NCBI RefSeq assembly: GCF_024499055.1
Contig: NZ_CP071249.1
Location: 496,001 to 560,000 of the forward strand
Length of the DNA: 64,000 nucleotides
Direction of reading: 5' to 3'
DNA from: Turicibacter bilis
Lineage (GTDB): Bacteria; Bacillota_I; Bacilli_A; MOL361; Turicibacteraceae
Shown here: piece after piece, positions 1-14,219 of the stretch
Layout of the letters: the number at the start of each line of letters is the position of its first letter
Position numbering within the stretch: the first letter of the stretch is position 1
Program-made: the position numbers and the translations under genes
Notes under the pieces: model-generated
The model's input: the letters and a program-made list of their open reading frames with translations, nothing else
Database searches by the model: none
Told to the model about the DNA's origin: nothing

Positions 1-767
1 GCCATTCCTTCTTCACCTGTGACAACTGGAATTTTTTTCTCAAGACAGGCATTCCAAACGACTGGCATTGAGCTTGAAACTAAATTATCCGTTGGGGTAT
101 AAATCACATCAACTTTATCAACAACAGAAGCAATGGCATTTGGAATCTCATTGACAGATGTAATTCCAACTTTGATAATGTCAAGCCCTAGCTTAGCCGC
201 AGCTTCTTCTGCTAATGCCACTTGAATTTCCGAATTCACTTCACTCGTTGTATATAAAATCCCAACTGTCTTTGCCTCAGGTAACAGTTCTTGAATCAGT
301 TCCATTTGTTTAGCCACAGGTGTTAAATCACTCGTTCCTGTCACATTTGTTCCGCTCACATCCCATGCCTTTGTTAACCCTGATTCCACAGGATCAGTTA
401 CCGCTGTGATCACAATTGGAATATCTTTTGTCGCGTTATAAGCCGCTTGAGCCGCTGGTGTCGCAATGGCAAAAACTAAATCAACGTTACTATTCACTAA
501 CTGGCTGGCAATGGTTTGTGCCGTTGGATTTTGTCCTTGTGCATTTTTAAACTCAATGTGAATGTTGTCTCCGTCAACATATCCCTCATCTTCTAAAGCA
601 GCAATAAATCCTTCATAAGAAGCGTCTAGGGCAGCATGTTCTGTATATTGTAAAACACCAATTGTTTTCATATCTGAATCCGTCTTTTGACTACAACCAG
701 CTAGAAAGCTACAATAACAACAAATCATCCCAACCCCTAGACCTTTTAATACTTTACTAGCTTTCAT
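1..767 (-). CDS. ABC transporter substrate-binding lipoprotein (PF04392 type), partial
   Basis: The gene starts at 767 and runs off the left edge, so 255 codons are visible and roughly the last 70 are missing compared with its paralog at 2898-3878. The N-terminus is a lipoprotein signal (MKASKVL start, hydrophobic core, lipobox LAGC), followed by KTIGVLQYTEHAALDASYEG, the start of the PF04392 periplasmic-binding fold. Motifs AITDPVE-like (VITAVTDPVES), SDLTPVAKQMELI and YTTSEVNSE are shared nearly word for word with the paralog, so this is a gene duplicate. The start is fixed by AGGAGG about 6 nt upstream. It has its own promoter and leader and follows the terminator of the transporter operon. 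No permease is visible next to it, though one could lie beyond the edge. It captures a small solute for import; the ligand is unknown. Confidence 0.85.
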   Translation of the reverse strand, partial: MKASKVLKGLGVGMICCYCSFLAGCSQKTDSDMKTIGVLQYTEHAALDASYEGFIAALEDEGYVDGDNIHIEFKNAQGQNPTAQTIASQLVNSNVDLVFAIATPAAQAAYNATKDIPIVITAVTDPVESGLTKAWDVSGTNVTGTSDLTPVAKQMELIQELLPEAKTVGILYTTSEVNSEIQVALAEEAAAKLGLDIIKVGITSVNEIPNAIASVVDKVDVIYTPTDNLVSSSMPVVWNACLEKKIPVVTGEEGM

Positions 768-986
768 ATGATCATCCTCCTATCATTATCTATTTTGTTC
801 AACTCATAATGAGTAAAACCATCCTCTTTATCTTCACATCACATTACCTTTTGGCTGAGAATAAAGGAGTTGTCTCTCAAACCTCTCTATTTACTAAAGA
901 CACCAACCTCATGGATTATTTTCTATTGATTAAGTTGGATTTCAATGAATTATGATTATTATATGAGCTTAAATAATAAAAGTCAA
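768..986 (-). promoter_or_regulatory. Promoter and about 190-nt leader of the edge binding-protein gene
   Basis: On the minus strand TTGACT (986-981), a 17-nt spacer and TATAAT (963-958) form a near-ideal sigma-A promoter. The transcript would carry a leader of about 190 nt. In it two UAG triplets sit 7 nt apart (896-894 and 889-887), and small hairpins can form (ACTCAT/ATGAGT close to the start codon; TGAGA/TCTCA at about 855-880). I see no U-tract terminator here, unlike the paralogous leader at 3879-4130. The promoter sequence and the ACTCAT..TGAGT element are shared with that paralogous leader. Confidence 0.6.
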
Positions 987-1177: not shown

Positions 1178-1214
1178 AAAAAAAGTGATGTCGCTACGTG
1201 ACATCACTTTTTTT
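1178..1214 (-). terminator. Intrinsic terminator of the ABC transporter operon
   Basis: AAAAAAAGTGATGTC pairs with GACATCACTTTTTTT around a short loop, with a run of U on either strand. It overlaps the stop codon of the ATPase gene, so it ends the minus-strand operon exactly at the last codon. Confidence 0.9.
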
Positions 1215-2007
1215 ATGAGAATAATAATTCATCACTGAGCGATCCATTATGCACATTTTTTTCAAATTGATGTAATAATTTTTCAGGCGTTAGTTCTTGT
1301 TTTTCATGGCCACTAATATCAAGAACAATCTGTCCTTCATGTAGCATGATTAAACGAGATCCATATTTAATCGCATGCGTTAAATTATGCGTAATCATTA
1401 ACGTCGTAATCTTTGATTCTTGGACCATTTGATTCGTTAAATCCATAATTTTAGCGGATGTTTTAGGATCGAGTGCTGCCGTATGCTCGTCAAGCAGTAA
1501 TAAATCGGGCTTCACCAAAGTCGCCATAATTAAAGAGAGCGCTTGACGTTGCCCTCCTGATAATAGACCAACTGGAGTTTGCAATTGATTTTCAAGCCCA
1601 AGTTGGAGAGGAGCAACGATTGCTTTAAATGTTTCAATATCTTTTCTAGATTCTAAAAATGCTAAACCAAATCGTTTTCCCTTATTACGAGCCAAGGATA
1701 AGTTTTGTTGAATGGTTAAAGAAGGTGAAGTTCCGAGCGTTGGATCTTGAAAGACGCGTGAGATAAAGCGTGTCCGTTGATATTCCTTTAGTTGGGTAAT
1801 CTCATGATTAAGTAAGGAAATAACCCCTGCATCGGGTGTTAACGTTCCGGAGATTAGATTTAATAAGGTTGACTTTCCGGCACCATTACTTCCAATCACC
1901 GTCACAAACTCTCCTTCTTCAATCGTTAAATCCAACCCCTGAAAAATTTTCTTTTCATTGACGGTATTCGGATAAAAAGTTTTACTTAATTGTTGAATGT
2001 TTAGCAC
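1213..2007 (-). CDS. ABC transporter ATP-binding protein
   Basis: This is the cytoplasmic ATPase of the transporter encoded with the genes at 1982-3878. It has Walker A GSNGAGKST near residue 40, signature LLSGGQRQALS, Walker B LLLLDEHTAALD (with His after the catalytic Glu) and the switch MITHN. About 264 aa, normal for a single-domain ATPase. I prefer a GTG start at 2007: the AGGAGGG site is 7 nt ahead of it and too close to the alternative TTG at 2013. The gene overlaps the 3' end of the permease gene by about 26 nt, so the two are translationally coupled. ATPases of this branch occur with PF04392 binding proteins (the TrpXYZ-like group). Substrate is not readable from the sequence. Confidence 0.9.
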   Translation of the reverse strand: MLNIQQLSKTFYPNTVNEKKIFQGLDLTIEEGEFVTVIGSNGAGKSTLLNLISGTLTPDAGVISLLNHEITQLKEYQRTRFISRVFQDPTLGTSPSLTIQQNLSLARNKGKRFGLAFLESRKDIETFKAIVAPLQLGLENQLQTPVGLLSGGQRQALSLIMATLVKPDLLLLDEHTAALDPKTSAKIMDLTNQMVQESKITTLMITHNLTHAIKYGSRLIMLHEGQIVLDISGHEKQELTPEKLLHQFEKNVHNGSLSDELLFS

Positions 2008-2896
2008 GCGCAATCCCTCCTTTAATGTTAGATGGTTTCGAAGTTTTAGATAATAGGGTAGGAAAAGCTTTAATTTTATGATTATTTAACGCTAAAGCTA
2101 ATGTAACAATTAACGCACTTAATAATTTTAAATCTGTTGCAGGGAATCCTAGCTGTAACGCAATAGCTGTACATCCTTGATATAAAATCGCTCCAATAAT
2201 AGCCATCGTGGTTGGAAGAATCCAACGTGCTTTTTTAAAAATCGCTTCACCGAAAATAACGGCGGCTAAGCCAATGACAATCGTTCCTGTTCCCATCCCA
2301 ACATCAGCAAATCCTTGATACTGAGCACTTAATGATCCTGCTAAAGCGACCAATCCATTCGAAACCATTAAACATACAATTTTAACCCATCCTAGATTCA
2401 CCCCTAATGTCGTCACTAATTGGGGATTATCTCCTGTGGCCTTAATCATAAATCCAAACTTCGTTTTTAAAAATAAATCGACGATGATTTTAACACACAC
2501 TACAATGATCACAATGGTTAATAAAATAGGAATCGCACCTGAAAAAATACGTTCTTCATTAAACAGTGGAATATTCGCTTTTCCCATAATACGTAGGTTA
2601 ATGGAATAAAGACCACTCATCACTAAAATTCCTGATAACAAATTCGTAATTTTAAGCTTAACATGCAAAATTCCTGTCACAGCTCCAGCCAACATGCCAC
2701 CTAAAAAAGAAATTAACACAGCGAGTAGGGGAGTGACATCTTGTGTCAGAAGGAAGGCTGTAATAGCCGCTCCTAGTGGGAAGGTTCCTTCAACCGATAA
2801 ATCAGCAAAATCTAACACTTTATAAGTCAAATAAACACCTAGAGCCAAGATCCCAAAAATGAGTCCTTGCTCTAAGACTGTTAATAAAACTCCCAT
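1982..2896 (-). CDS. ABC transporter permease (branched-chain amino acid/TrpY-like)
   Basis: Hydrophobic protein of about 304 aa with eight to ten predicted membrane spans and the PF02653-type segments (YKVLDFADLSVEGTFPLGAA near the N-terminus, GLVALAGSLSAQYQGFADVG in the middle). It forms the membrane channel for the binding protein upstream and the ATPase downstream. The ATG at 2896 is chosen because AGGAGG lies 8 nt before it; the GTG at 2905 overlaps that site. Its start comes one base after the stop of the binding-protein gene, as expected of one operon. Family assignment is firm; the solute is unknown. Confidence 0.9.
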   Translation of the reverse strand: MGVLLTVLEQGLIFGILALGVYLTYKVLDFADLSVEGTFPLGAAITAFLLTQDVTPLLAVLISFLGGMLAGAVTGILHVKLKITNLLSGILVMSGLYSINLRIMGKANIPLFNEERIFSGAIPILLTIVIIVVCVKIIVDLFLKTKFGFMIKATGDNPQLVTTLGVNLGWVKIVCLMVSNGLVALAGSLSAQYQGFADVGMGTGTIVIGLAAVIFGEAIFKKARWILPTTMAIIGAILYQGCTAIALQLGFPATDLKLLSALIVTLALALNNHKIKAFPTLLSKTSKPSNIKGGIARAKHSTIK

Positions 2897-2897
2897 C

Positions 2898-3878
2898 TTA
2901 TTCACCTCCTATAATTTCAGCACCTTTTAAAATCGAATCAGGAATGGATAATCCAATGGCTTCTGCATTTTTTTGATTCACGATTAACGTTGTATTTTGA
3001 AGGGTATTAATTGGCATCGTACTTGGATCTTTTCCTTCTAATACTTGAGCAGCCATTAAACCTGTCTCATATCCTAATTGATAGTAATCAATCCCTTCAG
3101 TTGCAATACCACCATCAATGACCATCGTATCCACTCCAGCAACAATGGGAACTTTTTTATCTAAACAAGCATTCCATAAAACTGGCATCGAACTTGCAAT
3201 TAAGTTATCAGTTGGGGCATACATCGCATCAACTTTATCAATCACAGATGCAACTGCTTGAGGAATATCATTAACCGTTGTGACTCCCACGCGAATCACT
3301 TGTAACCCTAAGTTAGAGGCGGCTTCTTCTGCCATCTTGACTTGAACTTCCGAATTGACCTCACTCGTTGTATAAATCACACCAACTGTTTTCGCCTCTG
3401 GAACTAACTCGGTAATCAATTCCATTTGTTTAGCAACAGGCGTTAAATCACTCGTTCCTGTCACATTTGTTCCTGACTGGTTCCAGTCTTTTACGACTCC
3501 AGCTTCAACAGGATCAGTCACCGCAGTCATTAAGATAGGAATGTCTTTTGTTGCATTATAGGCAGATTGAACAGCTTGTGTTGCAATGGCGAACATCATA
3601 TCCACATCGTCACTTACATACTGATTAGCAATAGTTTGAGCGGTTGTAAGATCCCCTTGAGCATTTTTTAAATCAATTTTAATATTTTCCCCTTCAATAT
3701 ATCCTTCCTCGGCTAATCCTGCGATGAAACCTTCGTAAGCTGCATCTAATGCACCATGCTCCATGTACTGTAAAACACCTATCGTTTTTACATCTGAGTC
3801 TTTATGACTACAAGCAAATAAAAAACTACTAAAAACCATCCCAACACCTACAAATTTTAACAGTTTGCTGGCTTTCAT
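2898..3878 (-). CDS. ABC transporter substrate-binding lipoprotein (PF04392 type)
   Basis: First gene of the binding-protein/permease/ATPase operon, 326 aa. It begins MKASKLLKFVGVGMVFSSF with lipobox LFAC, then KTIGVLQYMEHGALDAAYEG and the conserved ILMTAVTDPVEAG and MYAPTDNLI segments of the family. The ATG at 3878 has AGGAGA 8 nt upstream. Expression should be governed by the terminator at 3953-3980 and the UAG-rich leader, with the HutP-family gene just upstream as the likely regulator. That would suggest histidine or a related compound as the solute, but the binding protein does not belong to the classical histidine-binding family, so the ligand stays open. The paralog at 1-767 is very similar along its whole visible length. 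Confidence 0.88.
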   Translation of the reverse strand: MKASKLLKFVGVGMVFSSFLFACSHKDSDVKTIGVLQYMEHGALDAAYEGFIAGLAEEGYIEGENIKIDLKNAQGDLTTAQTIANQYVSDDVDMMFAIATQAVQSAYNATKDIPILMTAVTDPVEAGVVKDWNQSGTNVTGTSDLTPVAKQMELITELVPEAKTVGVIYTTSEVNSEVQVKMAEEAASNLGLQVIRVGVTTVNDIPQAVASVIDKVDAMYAPTDNLIASSMPVLWNACLDKKVPIVAGVDTMVIDGGIATEGIDYYQLGYETGLMAAQVLEGKDPSTMPINTLQNTTLIVNQKNAEAIGLSIPDSILKGAEIIGGE

Positions 3879-3952: not shown

Positions 3953-3980
3953 AAAAAAAAACTCTCTTATAAAGAGAGTT
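3953..3980 (-). terminator. Intrinsic terminator inside the leader (attenuator)
   Basis: AACTCTCTT / AAGAGAGTT form a perfect 9-bp stem with a 3-nt loop (3960-3980), followed on the minus strand by eight T (3959 downward). It lies about 75 nt before the start of the binding-protein gene and well downstream of a strong promoter, so it must be read through for expression. The base of its 5' arm abuts ACCTACA, which can pair with TGTAGGT at 4045-4051, offering a possible alternative fold. Confidence 0.85.
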
Positions 3981-4000
3981 GTAGGTAGACTTTAAAAACC

Positions 4001-4107
4001 CTATGTAAATAGAGGTTTAATTTACTTGAGCTACCATTCTACGAACCTACAAAATCCCCATATAATTTCTACCTCATAAATCACCGTTGATTTATGTTTT
4101 CCTACTA
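4001..4107 (-). promoter_or_regulatory. UAG-triplet cluster, putative HutP binding region in the leader
   Basis: The leader RNA has UAG at 4107-4105, 4104-4102, 4071-4069, then three at 4049-4047, 4041-4039 and 4033-4031 with a constant 8-nt period, and one more at 4003-4001. HutP of Bacillus subtilis is known to bind regularly spaced UAG/NAG triplets next to the hut terminator. The periodic triplets, the downstream terminator and the adjacent HutP-family gene are seen; binding is inference. Confidence 0.5.
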
Positions 4108-4130
4108 TTGAGTAGTTTTAAATTATGATT

Positions 4131-4159
4131 ATTATATGAGTTTTGGTAATAAATGTCAA
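4131..4159 (-). promoter_or_regulatory. Sigma-A promoter of the transporter operon
   Basis: Minus strand TTGACA (4159-4154), 17-nt spacer, TATAAT (4136-4131). Both hexamers are perfect. The same sequence context (CTCATATAATAATCATAATT) occurs at the paralogous promoter near 960. Confidence 0.85.
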
Positions 4160-4194
4160 AAGGAATATAGAGATTTTTTTATCTATTTATAAAA

Positions 4195-4620
4195 TTACAG
4201 ATTTGCAGGTACTGAACGATGGGCGAGACCGATGACGACATCATCTAAATGAAGTAACCCAATACTTAAGAAAATACAGACGGTTAAATTTTCACCACAG
4301 CGAGCAATGGCAACTTTACCTCCTGCATTTAACCCAGTTGCTTTCATTGAAACTTGCATAATGGCATCACGTGTTGCACCTGCAACAGCTCCATCTAAAA
4401 TAAAAGATTCTTTTGTCACATTTGTTTTACGTGAGGCAATAATCGCACGCTCAATAATTTTAGGAATGGATTGAATTAAATTTCCCCCGATATCCACTGC
4501 AGTGGCATAAATACCTTGCGATCTTAATTCACGAACTAATTGATCTTCTTCACTTCTCGATGCGGTCATTGAAACTTTAACAGCCGCTTTAGCTACATCT
4601 AAACTACTAAATTCTTTCAT
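4195..4620 (-). CDS. hutP: HutP-family RNA-binding antiterminator
   Basis: Protein of 141 aa matching the HutP family end to end: an N-terminal helix with MTASRSEEDQLVRELRSQGI, the segment GGNLIQSIPKIIERAIIASR, the DGAVAGATRDAIMQVSMKAT helix, GGKVAIARCGENL, and a C-terminus with HLDDVVIGLAHRS. In B. subtilis HutP is a hexamer that binds L-histidine and Mg2+ and prevents termination in hut mRNA. The C-terminal GLAH aligns with the GLEH that contains the metal ligand His138, but by eye the His73/His77 ligands of B. subtilis are not present, so the co-ligand may differ. The ATG at 4620 has AAGGAGG 8 nt upstream. No hut genes are nearby; the next gene downstream is an ABC transporter with an attenuator-like leader. 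A terminator also stands upstream of hutP itself. Confidence 0.8.
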   Translation of the reverse strand: MKEFSSLDVAKAAVKVSMTASRSEEDQLVRELRSQGIYATAVDIGGNLIQSIPKIIERAIIASRKTNVTKESFILDGAVAGATRDAIMQVSMKATGLNAGGKVAIARCGENLTVCIFLSIGLLHLDDVVIGLAHRSVPANL

Positions 4621-4705
4621 CTTCAGACCTCCTTCAGCTACCATTTAAGGTTACACCTTTTTAGAAGAAAATACAAAATAAAAATCGAATTTTTTCTATA
4701 AATAA

Positions 4706-5203: not shown

Positions 5204-6037
5204 CTAAACAACTTTTTTAAGGGTGTTTTTACGATACTCAACTGGGGACAAATAACCTAGTGAAGAGTGGATCCTATGATTGTTATACCAGTTAACGTAG
5301 TCGGCAAATTCATAACCTAGTTGTTCTTGGGTTTCAAATATCTGATGGTTTACAAATTCTGTTTTGATTACTTTATAGGTCGCTTCTGCAACAGCGTTGT
5401 CATAGGGACATCCCTTCATACTTAAAGAGCGTTCAATTTCAAATACCTCTAAAATCTCATCAATGATTTTATTCTTAAATTCGTTACCTCGATCCGTGTG
5501 GAAAATCTTGATTTGACTTAGGTTAGTTTGGACTGTACTGAACGCCTTCTTAACTAATTCTGCATCCTTATTAGGCCCAGAGCTATAACCGATAATTTCA
5601 CGATTAAACAGGTCTACAAGCACACAAAGATAGTGCCAGCGATTTTTTACACGAACGTACGTTAAATCACTGACAACAACGTTTAAATGTGGTTGTTCAT
5701 CAAAGTTACGATCCACGATATTTTCAGTGTTATCTTCGTTACATTTAGCTGTATGCGGCTTAAATTGAGCAACGGTATAATTCGATACAAGGCCTTCTTG
5801 TTTCATGATACGACTAATACGACGACGTGAAACTTGTTGTCCCATCTTTTTTAACTCTTGCTTAATTTTTCGAGTCCCGTAATTATTTCGGCTTCGACGA
5901 AAAATCTCAATGATATCAGTAACCAGTTGAGTTTCATCTTTCTTCGGTTTAGACTCGTAATAATAAGTGCTACGAGGCACATTAAGGACTTTGCACATCG
6001 CTGAAACTGAATATTTGTGTGTATTGTTTTTAATCAC
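5204..6037 (-). CDS. IS3-family transposase OrfB (DDE integrase core)
   Basis: Protein of 277 aa with an N-terminal HTH_21-like region (MCKVLNVPRSTYYYE, NYGTRKIKQELK) and a DDE core: VVVSDLTYVRV (first Asp), IFHTDRGNEFKN (second Asp) and GCPYDNAVAEATYKVIKTE (catalytic Glu), followed by the INxRxH-like NWYNNHRIHSSLGYLSP. It cuts and joins IS ends, normally as an OrfAB fusion made by frameshifting. The apparent start is GTG at 6037. With orfA interrupted upstream, the fused transposase cannot be made from this copy, so it is probably inactive unless helped in trans. Confidence 0.9.
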   Translation of the reverse strand: MIKNNTHKYSVSAMCKVLNVPRSTYYYESKPKKDETQLVTDIIEIFRRSRNNYGTRKIKQELKKMGQQVSRRRISRIMKQEGLVSNYTVAQFKPHTAKCNEDNTENIVDRNFDEQPHLNVVVSDLTYVRVKNRWHYLCVLVDLFNREIIGYSSGPNKDAELVKKAFSTVQTNLSQIKIFHTDRGNEFKNKIIDEILEVFEIERSLSMKGCPYDNAVAEATYKVIKTEFVNHQIFETQEQLGYEFADYVNWYNNHRIHSSLGYLSPVEYRKNTLKKVV

Positions 6038-6039
6038 AT

Positions 6040-6381
6040 TTATCTTCGTCCTAAGATCAGCGCGGCTTGCTTTAAAATATCATTTTCCATTCCCTAGCAG
6101 TGGAGGATTTATGCTTCGCATGCTAGGTGACCCATTTCCAATTGTTTAACCTTTTTACGAAGTTGGATTAACTCTTGTTCTTCTTCTGAGCGGTTATCTT
6201 TCTCCTTAAAAGAACCTGTAGAAGTTGACTGTTTAATCCATTTATCGAGTAAAGACGATGAGATATCGTATTCACGAACAATATCACATTTACGTTTCCC
6301 ATTTAAATAAAGCTGGACTAATTGGTTTTTAAATTCATCTGTATACGTACGGCGAAGTCTACGAGTTTTAGTTTGGGTCAT
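6040..6381 (-). pseudogene. IS3-family OrfA (HTH_Tnp_1), interrupted by a 40-bp insert
   Basis: The frame begins MTQTKTRRLRRTYTDEFKNQ, the typical HTH start of IS3 OrfA, and continues to KQLEMG, then meets a TAA at 6109-6111 inside a 40-bp foreign insert (6092-6131). Taking out the insert plus one 5-bp duplication (45 bp, in frame) restores KQLEMENDILKQAALILGRR and a normal stop at 6040-6042, giving a 98-aa OrfA, the usual size. The predicted product now stops after 90 codons. The lesion is therefore one clean insertion into a previously intact gene. Confidence 0.85.
6092..6131. repeat. 40-bp palindromic mini-element with 5-bp target duplication
   Basis: Flanked by direct repeats CCATT at 6087-6091 and 6132-6136. 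Its ends hold inverted repeats CCTAGCA (6093-6099) and TGCTAGG (6121-6127), with an inner TGCTTCGCA hairpin. It is more GC-rich than its surroundings. No second copy is visible in this window. It looks like a very small mobile palindromic repeat (REP- or MITE-like), mobilised in trans. Confidence 0.7.
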
Positions 6382-12155: not shown

Positions 12156-14219
12156 TTAATCAGCTCCCATTTGTATCTGCTTGATTTTCCTTTTCCGAAT
12201 AATTAATGGGTCAAATAGATATAAAAGTCCCGGTAGCACAAACAATACAATGATTAATGATAAGATAGCACCGCGTCCAATAAAAATACCAAGCTGTCCT
12301 AACAGCTGATTTGTCGTAATATATCCAAGTAATAAGCCAACTACCGTTAAGACACTTCCTGATGTCAAGATAGAAACAGTCACATCAGAAATTGTTTGAA
12401 TAACCGCTGCTTTTTTGTTCATCATTTCACGATTTTCCTTATATCGATCGGTCATTAAAATAGCATAATCCACAGTTGCCCCAAGCTGAATAGAACTGAT
12501 AATCAAATAAGCAATATAAAAAATAGGCGTATCCATAAAGTATGGGATAGATAGATTTATCCATATGGCTGTTTCAATACTAAGTACTAAAACAATTGGC
12601 AAAGAAATTGATCGTAGTGATAATAAGAGAACAATAAATACGGCTGCAATTGCCATCAAATTAACCTTAACCATATCATTGGTTACAGTCTCCATCAAAT
12701 CATACGTGCTGACACCCTCACCAGCTAAATAATACGTATCAGAATAATATTTTTGTGCGATGTCGCGAACTTGTTCAACTAAAGAAAAGGCATCTTCTCC
12801 CTCATAAGGAACATCAACTGATAACACCATTCGACTATAATTTTTTGATATCAACTGTGAGAGTGTATTTTCGTCTAGATATTCCAGTGGAATCTCTGCC
12901 CCAGCCAGATCCACATAAGAAATAATACTTGTGACTTGTGGTAGGCTATTTAATTCCTGAGAAAGTTCTGTTTCAGTTGCTGTATCCCCTACTGGCACCA
13001 TCAGCACATAGGTATCACTTTTGCCAAACACTGATTCGATTACAGCTGTATCTGATCCTAGTTGGGTTTCACTACCAAAAATATTAGATGAACCATAATA
13101 ATAATCATTAGCATTAGAAGCTAAATAAGCAGGTATAATGAGAATAACAAAAATACAAACCATAGGAATTGTAACTTTTTTCACAATCTTTCCAAATAAA
13201 TCGAACTTAGGTAATAATTCTTTATGTCTTGTTTTATCTAACCATTTATAGGTCAATAAAATAAATGACGGCATGAAAACAAATACCGTAATCAAACTAA
13301 TTGCCACACCCTTTGCCAAAGCAAGGCCAAGATCAGGTCCTAGTCTAAATTGCATCAGTACTAGTGCCAAAAAACCAATAACTGTTGTCAATCCACTAGA
13401 AAGGATCGAGGATGTTGACTTACAAAGTGCCTCCGTCATCGCAGCTTTAACGTCTGGATTTTCTTGACGGCATTCTTCAAAACGATGAAGCAAAAATACC
13501 GAATAGTCTAACGAGACTGCAAGTTGTAAAATACTTCCTGCTGCATTCGTAACAAACGATATCTCACCAAAAATCAAATTCGTTCCATTATTAATGACGA
13601 TAGCAAGACCAAGGCCGATCAGAACAATCAGTGGCTCCATCCATGAATTTGTCGTCATCACTAGGACAACTAAAACGAACAAAACTGTAAAAATTGAAAT
13701 TTTATTGATTTCTAAAACAGTCTCAGTCGTTGAAATAGCGGTTGAAACAGCACTTCCTGTCATCGCATTATCTTCACCTATGAGCTCACGAATACTAGAT
13801 ACCGCTTCAATACGACGATCTTCCTCAATGGTCACTGTAAACAATGCATTATTATCCTTATAATAAGTTTCGAGAGTATCAGTATCTAGTGTTGAAAGAG
13901 GAACAAAAATACTGACCACATCATCTAGCCAAGTAACAGCTGTGACTCCATCAACAGCTTCCAACTTCTCTTTATATTCCAAAGCCTCTGGAATTGTAAC
14001 ATCAGAAATCATGATACGCGCATTAGGAATCCCCCCATCGAACTCTTCTTGCATCAACTCAAGGGATACTGTAGAGGGACTACTCTCTGGCAGATAGTCA
14101 TTAATATCATAATTGACCTTAACTAGATTCCCAAGTAATAAACACACCACAAAAACCATCGTAAAAATCATAACCATCGTTTTCCGATGATTTACGAGAC
14201 TCATATAGAATTTTTTCAT
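12156..14219 (-). CDS. MMPL/RND family transporter
   Basis: Protein of 687 aa with the duplicated RND layout: a first span near residues 12-32, an extracytoplasmic loop, five or six spans from about 180 to 350, a second loop, and further spans from about 530 to 670. Characteristic segments are AGSILQLAVSLDYSVFLLHRF and IQLGATVDYAILMTDRYKEN, carrying the DYS/DYA Asp-Tyr motifs that in RND proteins relay protons. Length fits the MMPL family of Firmicutes (YdfJ-like). It probably exports lipids, peptides or toxic compounds using the proton gradient. It is first in a two-gene operon with the xxxLxxG protein. The start at 14219 follows AGGAGGAGG. Confidence 0.88.
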   Translation of the reverse strand: MKKFYMSLVNHRKTMVMIFTMVFVVCLLLGNLVKVNYDINDYLPESSPSTVSLELMQEEFDGGIPNARIMISDVTIPEALEYKEKLEAVDGVTAVTWLDDVVSIFVPLSTLDTDTLETYYKDNNALFTVTIEEDRRIEAVSSIRELIGEDNAMTGSAVSTAISTTETVLEINKISIFTVLFVLVVLVMTTNSWMEPLIVLIGLGLAIVINNGTNLIFGEISFVTNAAGSILQLAVSLDYSVFLLHRFEECRQENPDVKAAMTEALCKSTSSILSSGLTTVIGFLALVLMQFRLGPDLGLALAKGVAISLITVFVFMPSFILLTYKWLDKTRHKELLPKFDLFGKIVKKVTIPMVCIFVILIIPAYLASNANDYYYGSSNIFGSETQLGSDTAVIESVFGKSDTYVLMVPVGDTATETELSQELNSLPQVTSIISYVDLAGAEIPLEYLDENTLSQLISKNYSRMVLSVDVPYEGEDAFSLVEQVRDIAQKYYSDTYYLAGEGVSTYDLMETVTNDMVKVNLMAIAAVFIVLLLSLRSISLPIVLVLSIETAIWINLSIPYFMDTPIFYIAYLIISSIQLGATVDYAILMTDRYKENREMMNKKAAVIQTISDVTVSILTSGSVLTVVGLLLGYITTNQLLGQLGIFIGRGAILSLIIVLFVLPGLLYLFDPLIIRKRKIKQIQMGAD

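Follow-up and report, generated by a model that had tools for sequence, protein, structure and literature searches.

A HutP-like protein and UAG arrays in eight-nucleotide steps as a putative aromatic amino acid-responsive RNA repressor circuit in Turicibacter and clostridia

The window, a 64,000-nucleotide stretch of the Turicibacter bilis genome, harbors on its minus strand a gene encoding a HutP-like protein, 3′ of which lie a promoter, a leader with three UAG triplets, a terminator and the genes of a PF04392 ABC transporter, in that order. This circuit is very probably a real conserved genomic unit. On balance, it is probably a ligand-controlled RNA repressor circuit, in which an aromatic amino acid-responsive (probably tyrosine-responsive) subfamily of HutP would act with a sign opposite to that in hut. 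HutP is the textbook one-operon, histidine-only antiterminator.

The hutP-like gene (4195..4620, minus strand) encodes a protein of 141 amino acids, predicted to be an RNA-binding regulator with the HutP fold. The ORF spans 4195-4644 (-), and its likely start is the ATG at 4620, with GGAGG located 5′ of it. The protein matched the PF09021 profile over positions 1-128 of 128 with 133 bits (cut-off 25). Tertiary structure prediction using AlphaFold2 with a 53-sequence alignment gave a model with a pLDDT of 90.8, and the top 11 PDB matches retrieved with Foldseek were all HutP (TM about 0.7), the best being 1vea (E 6e-9, TM 0.73, 19% identity); only HutP structures were matched at E below 0.001. 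Among the PDB sequences, phmmer and profile searches found no HutP, the link coming from the fold search only, and hhalign against Bacillus subtilis HutP gave nothing informative. The protein was also without a match to NF002838, the equivalog model of the hut antiterminator HutP. The residues H73, H77, and H138 of B. subtilis HutP, which are the metal ligands in the HutP structures, aligned in a joint alignment of about 20% identity with an invariant Gly, an invariant Gly, and Glu/Asp, respectively, in 53 of 53 members. The preliminary description had reported two metal-ligand histidines as lost; the loss holds, while the count does not, as all three are replaced in this alignment of about 20% identity. 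Its suggestion of an altered specificity is borne out by their replacement across the clade. Because these three residues are replaced, the clade should not bind histidine and metal in the known way, and the small residues would give space for a larger side chain. The second HutP of one clostridial genome (Clostridia bacterium Soudan_22; L148, G583) is canonical, every metal histidine being present, and it matched NF002838 with a score of 168.5 (cut-off 155). The hutP gene at this locus precedes a leader with step-8 UAGs, a terminator and a gene for a TRAP-type (DctP-like) binding protein; as this canonical locus also has step-8 UAGs, the 8-nt step is not confined to the new clade. One further HutP match (G375/L018) was rejected as a Toprim-like false positive.

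The hutP gene, promoter, UAG steps, and terminator described earlier for this locus were all present at the positions given for them. The promoter of the transporter operon (4131..4159, minus strand) is of the form TTGACA-17-TATAAT, a 12/12 match. The UAG array GUAGGUUCGUAGAAUGGUAG (4031..4050, minus strand), a predicted HutP operator, consists of triplets at 4049-4047, 4041-4039, and 4033-4031 (-), each step being exactly 8 nt, and additional UAGs are present in the leader at about 4107-4102 and 4073. An intrinsic terminator with a 9 bp stem and a U tract (T9) is positioned at 3960..3980 (-), 5′ of the first transporter gene. No Rfam match was obtained in the window, and hence none to the T-box family (RF00230) in its leader. 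The operon encodes a TrpX-like substrate-binding lipoprotein (SBP; 2898..3878, minus strand; PF04392, 287 bits), which scored 344 bits against the TrpX equivalog NF041285, below its cut-off of 390, followed by a permease (1982..2905, minus strand; PF02653) and an ATPase (1213..2013, minus strand; PF00005). A second substrate-binding protein, 70% identical and truncated by the window edge (1..767, minus strand), lies 3′ of the operon. This second copy has its own promoter-like sequence, TTGACT-17-TATAAT, at 986-958 (-), and neither a UAG array nor a terminator was found before it (1-986, minus strand).

In a shuffled sequence of 64 kb, UAG-N5-UAG-N5-UAG is expected 0.31 times, and the array of the window is therefore weak evidence by itself; the proof is carried by the comparative data. 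The strict pattern GTAGNNNNGTAGNNNNGTAG has a single occurrence in the 2.79 Mb genome of the window, at 4031-4050; about 40 of the fetched loci contain it too, in nearly every case shortly 3′ of hutP. Counted over 26 non-redundant orthologous leaders, step-8 UAG pairs numbered 90 against 10.2 ± 3.5 expected from dinucleotide shuffles (z 23), whereas step-7 pairs in the same leaders were at chance (12 vs. 9.9). The operator consensus nAUGGUAG is common to the window and its relatives. The strict pattern gave 24 matches in 22 HutP genomes against 3 for the reversed pattern, and 26 in a further 50 HutP genomes against 12 for the reversed control. Conservation of the UAG spacing had been proposed as one of the points on which the idea would stand or fall, and the step of 8 was found to be kept across Clostridia and Haloplasmataceae. 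The 5-nt spacer pointed out earlier is likewise a true feature, given the enrichment of step-8 pairs in orthologous leaders. Sites of HutP are reported to have three NAG triplets each (PMC7430163). Three regularly spaced NAG triplets are present here also, as three UAGs in the window and as GAG-UAG-UAG at the start codons of the relatives. From these sequence data, it is highly likely that the HutP-like protein binds the arrays directly.

The linkage of hutP to the importer was evaluated by scanning about 85,000 species genomes with an alignment of HutP-like proteins, which yielded 80 loci; together with whole-genome searches, the linkage sample comprised 91 loci, some of them from copies of the same genome. 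In 41 of these 91, hutP has a PF04392 importer 3′ of it in the same orientation, and the upstream genes varied. The linked loci span Turicibacter, Haloplasmataceae, Clostridium, Romboutsia/Terrisporobacter, Alkaliphilus, and others. In Anaerovorax odorimutans (L051/L174), an SSS symporter is found 3′ of hutP in the place of the importer. A second group of loci has hutP adjoining apparent ponA, comEC, and holA genes, as read from the sequence, and the targets of these proteins must thus lie in trans. At one congener locus (L010, G004), the only one from a congener with the importer, the importer is placed 5′ of hutP; its leader (12900-13090, minus strand) contains a degenerate UAG array and a strong antiterminator/terminator pair, GUUUGUGAG/CUCACAAAC.

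Most relatives possess a second operator, GAG-N5-UAG-N5-UAG, covering the Shine-Dalgarno sequence and the start codon. In 26 leaders, GAG (within the Shine-Dalgarno sequence), UAG, and UAG were found at -12, -4, and +4 from the importer AUG in 21, 22, and 22 cases, respectively; codon 2 is GTA, and residue 3 varies (G, V, A). A search of 60 HutP genomes with this pattern gave 27 matches against 1 for the control, comprising 25 PF04392 binding proteins, 1 NSS symporter, and 1 chance match. The SBP gene of the window is without a start operator.

Structural prediction of the window leader showed a putative antiterminator with a 5′ arm at 4045..4065 (-) and a 3′ arm at 3967..3986 (-), the latter overlapping the 5′ side of the terminator. 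For a transcript elongated as far as the terminator loop, 4065-4055 and 4052-4045 (containing the first UAG) were predicted to pair with 3967-3986. Blocking the array in silico lost 7 kcal/mol and left the terminator arm free; 8% of shuffled leaders were as good as the window antiterminator, which is modest support. The segment most complementary to the terminator arm overlapped the array in 19 of 23 leaders (8.7 expected), and the paired segments differ in sequence yet match, as in UAGGAGA/UCUCC, GGCGAG/CUCGCC (L027), and GAAGAG/CUCUUC (L098). The array accounted for 77% of the upstream pairing of the terminator arm against a leader coverage of 25% (p 5e-6). The total upstream pairing of the terminator arms was not above that of shuffles (p 0.14), and the helix energies were not significant overall; hence, the case for the sign of control comes chiefly from the start operator and from the identity of the pairing segment. 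With moderate confidence, the UAG array is predicted to act as an antiterminator arm. An array serving in this way and a UAG operator over the start codon both predict repression, and we infer that the HutP-like protein is likely a repressor. The proposal that HutP prevents termination is not supported by these two features.

Arrays were also found at loci away from hutP, where they mark candidate trans targets. They precede unlinked PF04392 operons (L111, L112, L114, L122), NSS symporter genes (L127, L260), and SSS symporter genes (L124, L143, L146). An array adjoins the start codon of prephenate dehydrogenase-aroB (TyrA-AroB) in three genomes (L117, L144, L145) and precedes PaaK in two (L116, L142). 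In Turicibacter, hutP is present in 5/5 genomes and the ABC importer in 2/5, while all five have UAG-N5-UAG beside the Shine-Dalgarno sequence of one orthologous NSS symporter gene (G000:C1:1046013-1046028 in the window genome). This putative target would explain the retention of hutP where the importer is absent. The pattern GTAGNNNNGTAGGAGG was not enriched across all genomes, the control being commoner, and it was used solely for orthologous recurrence in Turicibacter. For genes other than those of SBPs and NSS symporters, the trans matches were few relative to the control rate (12 control matches in the second set of genomes), and the case for them is their recurrence at orthologous genes. 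The hut genes were not among the candidate targets found, which were importers, symporters, TyrA, and PaaK. The linkage and the conserved operators agree with the earlier prediction that HutP controls the transporter, and importers and symporters as candidate targets fit the accompanying idea of a circuit moved from degradation to uptake. UAG arrays were seen once each before EtfBA (L147) and an AMP-dependent ligase (L222); these single cases could be due to chance and are not claimed as targets.

The identity of the ligand was approached through T-boxes. All of the five T-boxes on candidate-target symporter genes or an orthologue had the specifier UAC (Tyr). They comprise those on the SSS gene L124, which carries a UAG array, and its orthologue L160, in which the strict array was not seen, and those on the NSS genes L193/L260, L194, and L192, each of which has a start operator. 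The rule for reading the specifier was checked on a serS T-box, which read UCC. An NSS gene without a UAG operator (L211) has a T-box reading AUC. The PF04392 operons yielded no T-box of their own. Other NSS paralogues devoid of a UAG operator (L191, L195, L205, and L206) have a different structured leader in common, and in three of the four it matches the Rfam trpB motif RF04312 just under its cut-off. On the mRNAs of L124 and the NSS genes L192, L193, and L194, the HutP operator lies 3′ of the Tyr T-box, and the sequences suggest that two separate sensors follow each other on the transcript and respond independently to the same amino acid. The Tyr T-boxes, together with TyrA as a candidate target, make tyrosine the leading choice, and it is probably the ligand of the HutP-like protein.

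A mechanism can be proposed in which the protein, with its HutP fold and most likely the hexameric state of its relatives, would bind an aromatic amino acid (tyrosine being the probable one) and then grip NAG (mostly UAG) triplets at 8-nt spacing. An unbound array would pair with the 5′ side of the terminator, permitting readthrough into the importer genes; on a bound array, the terminator would form and uptake would be turned off. In most clostridial relatives, binding to the GAG/UAG/UAG operator around the start codon would, in addition, keep the ribosome off the mRNA. The circuit would govern a regulon for uptake of the amino acid, through a TrpXYZ-like ABC importer and Na+ symporters, and in some lineages also for its synthesis, through TyrA-AroB. 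It is an even call whether the tyrosine-sensing subfamily serves widely, across Clostridia and their allies, as a global RNA-binding repressor, governing uptake and synthesis through both attenuation and the start-codon operator as an equivalent of TRAP. This equivalent, evolved from HutP, would sometimes be stacked behind a Tyr T-box on one mRNA.

The same circuit might respond to tryptophan, or to aromatic amino acids generally. In Streptococcus suis, the PF04392 system TrpXYZ imports tryptophan under a Trp T-box, a tyrosine peptide being without effect (PMC9382623), which makes tryptophan a possible ligand; the SBP of the window is TrpX-like as well, and neither PaaK nor AroB is specific for tyrosine. 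Such a ligand is nevertheless unlikely, as all five T-boxes on the symporter genes read UAC, prephenate dehydrogenase is a tyrosine step, and the trpB motif matches fall on NSS paralogues devoid of UAG operators. Positive control, with bound HutP disrupting the terminator so that the amino acid switches the importer on, would follow the precedent of the B. subtilis antiterminator (PMC7430163) and could draw on the UAG within the terminator loop of some relatives. It is rather improbable given that the arrays lie 5′ of the terminator and are able to pair with its 5′ arm, that the second operator overlies the Shine-Dalgarno sequence and AUG, and that a product inducing its own uptake and TyrA would be unusual.

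Histidine as ligand and cargo, the view taken in the preliminary description, draws on membership of the HutP family and is now very improbable: the metal and histidine ligands are lost clade-wide, the SBP is TrpX-like, and the targets are aromatic amino acid genes, prephenate dehydrogenase among them, with Tyr T-boxes. It is equally improbable that some other protein reads the arrays and that the HutP linkage is coincidental. Binding by HutP is predicted from sequence, and TRAP also recognizes UAG/GAG triplets (PMC7430163), but the arrays recur beside hutP in many lineages and three NAG triplets per site fit HutP (PMC7430163). The window system itself has the HutP fold and three triplets at step 8, not about 11 close-set ones as in TRAP. 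Triplets bound by TRAP are separated by 2–3 nt, a spacing unlike the 8-nt step.

The HutP-like system described here resembles B. subtilis HutP in its fold, its Pfam family, and its clusters of NAG triplets in a terminator-bearing leader. The new clade differs in its identity of about 20%, the loss of the histidine and metal ligands, a step of 8 (the B. subtilis site has a step of 7), many candidate trans targets in uptake and synthesis rather than degradation, and predicted repression with operators over start codons. The predicted likeness to TRAP lies in an amino acid-activated protein on NAG repeats that occludes an antiterminator and, on further mRNAs, the site of ribosome binding; TRAP is an unrelated protein that responds to tryptophan and binds 11 triplets with short spacers. 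With S. suis TrpXYZ (PMC9382623), the importer family and leader attenuation are shared, the sensor there being a tRNA-sensing T-box and here, by prediction, a protein-bound UAG array. Tyr T-box leaders (RF00230), found on five of the putative HutP-target symporter genes or orthologues, differ in sensing uncharged tRNA and sit 5′ of the HutP operator on a shared mRNA. Among 40 of the 45 open-access papers naming HutP, none gave an account of such an aromatic HutP circuit. If the proposed circuit is correct, much of the HutP family in clostridia and gut bacteria would be an aromatic amino acid regulator of opposite sign and dual mode, convergent with TRAP. The operator code NAG-N5-NAG-N5-NAG could then be used for regulon prediction, a function would be assigned to an uncharacterized RNA-binding protein, and likely substrates to several as yet unassigned importers.

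In the vicinity of the hutP gene of the window, an IS3-type transposase pair is located immediately 5′ (5204-6381, minus strand). UAG triplets, including one step-8 pair, also surround the hutP start (4560-4660, minus strand), with AATGGTAG upstream and TAGTAGTTTAGATGTAG within codons 4-9. This pattern, partly common to the genus, could possibly reflect autoregulation.
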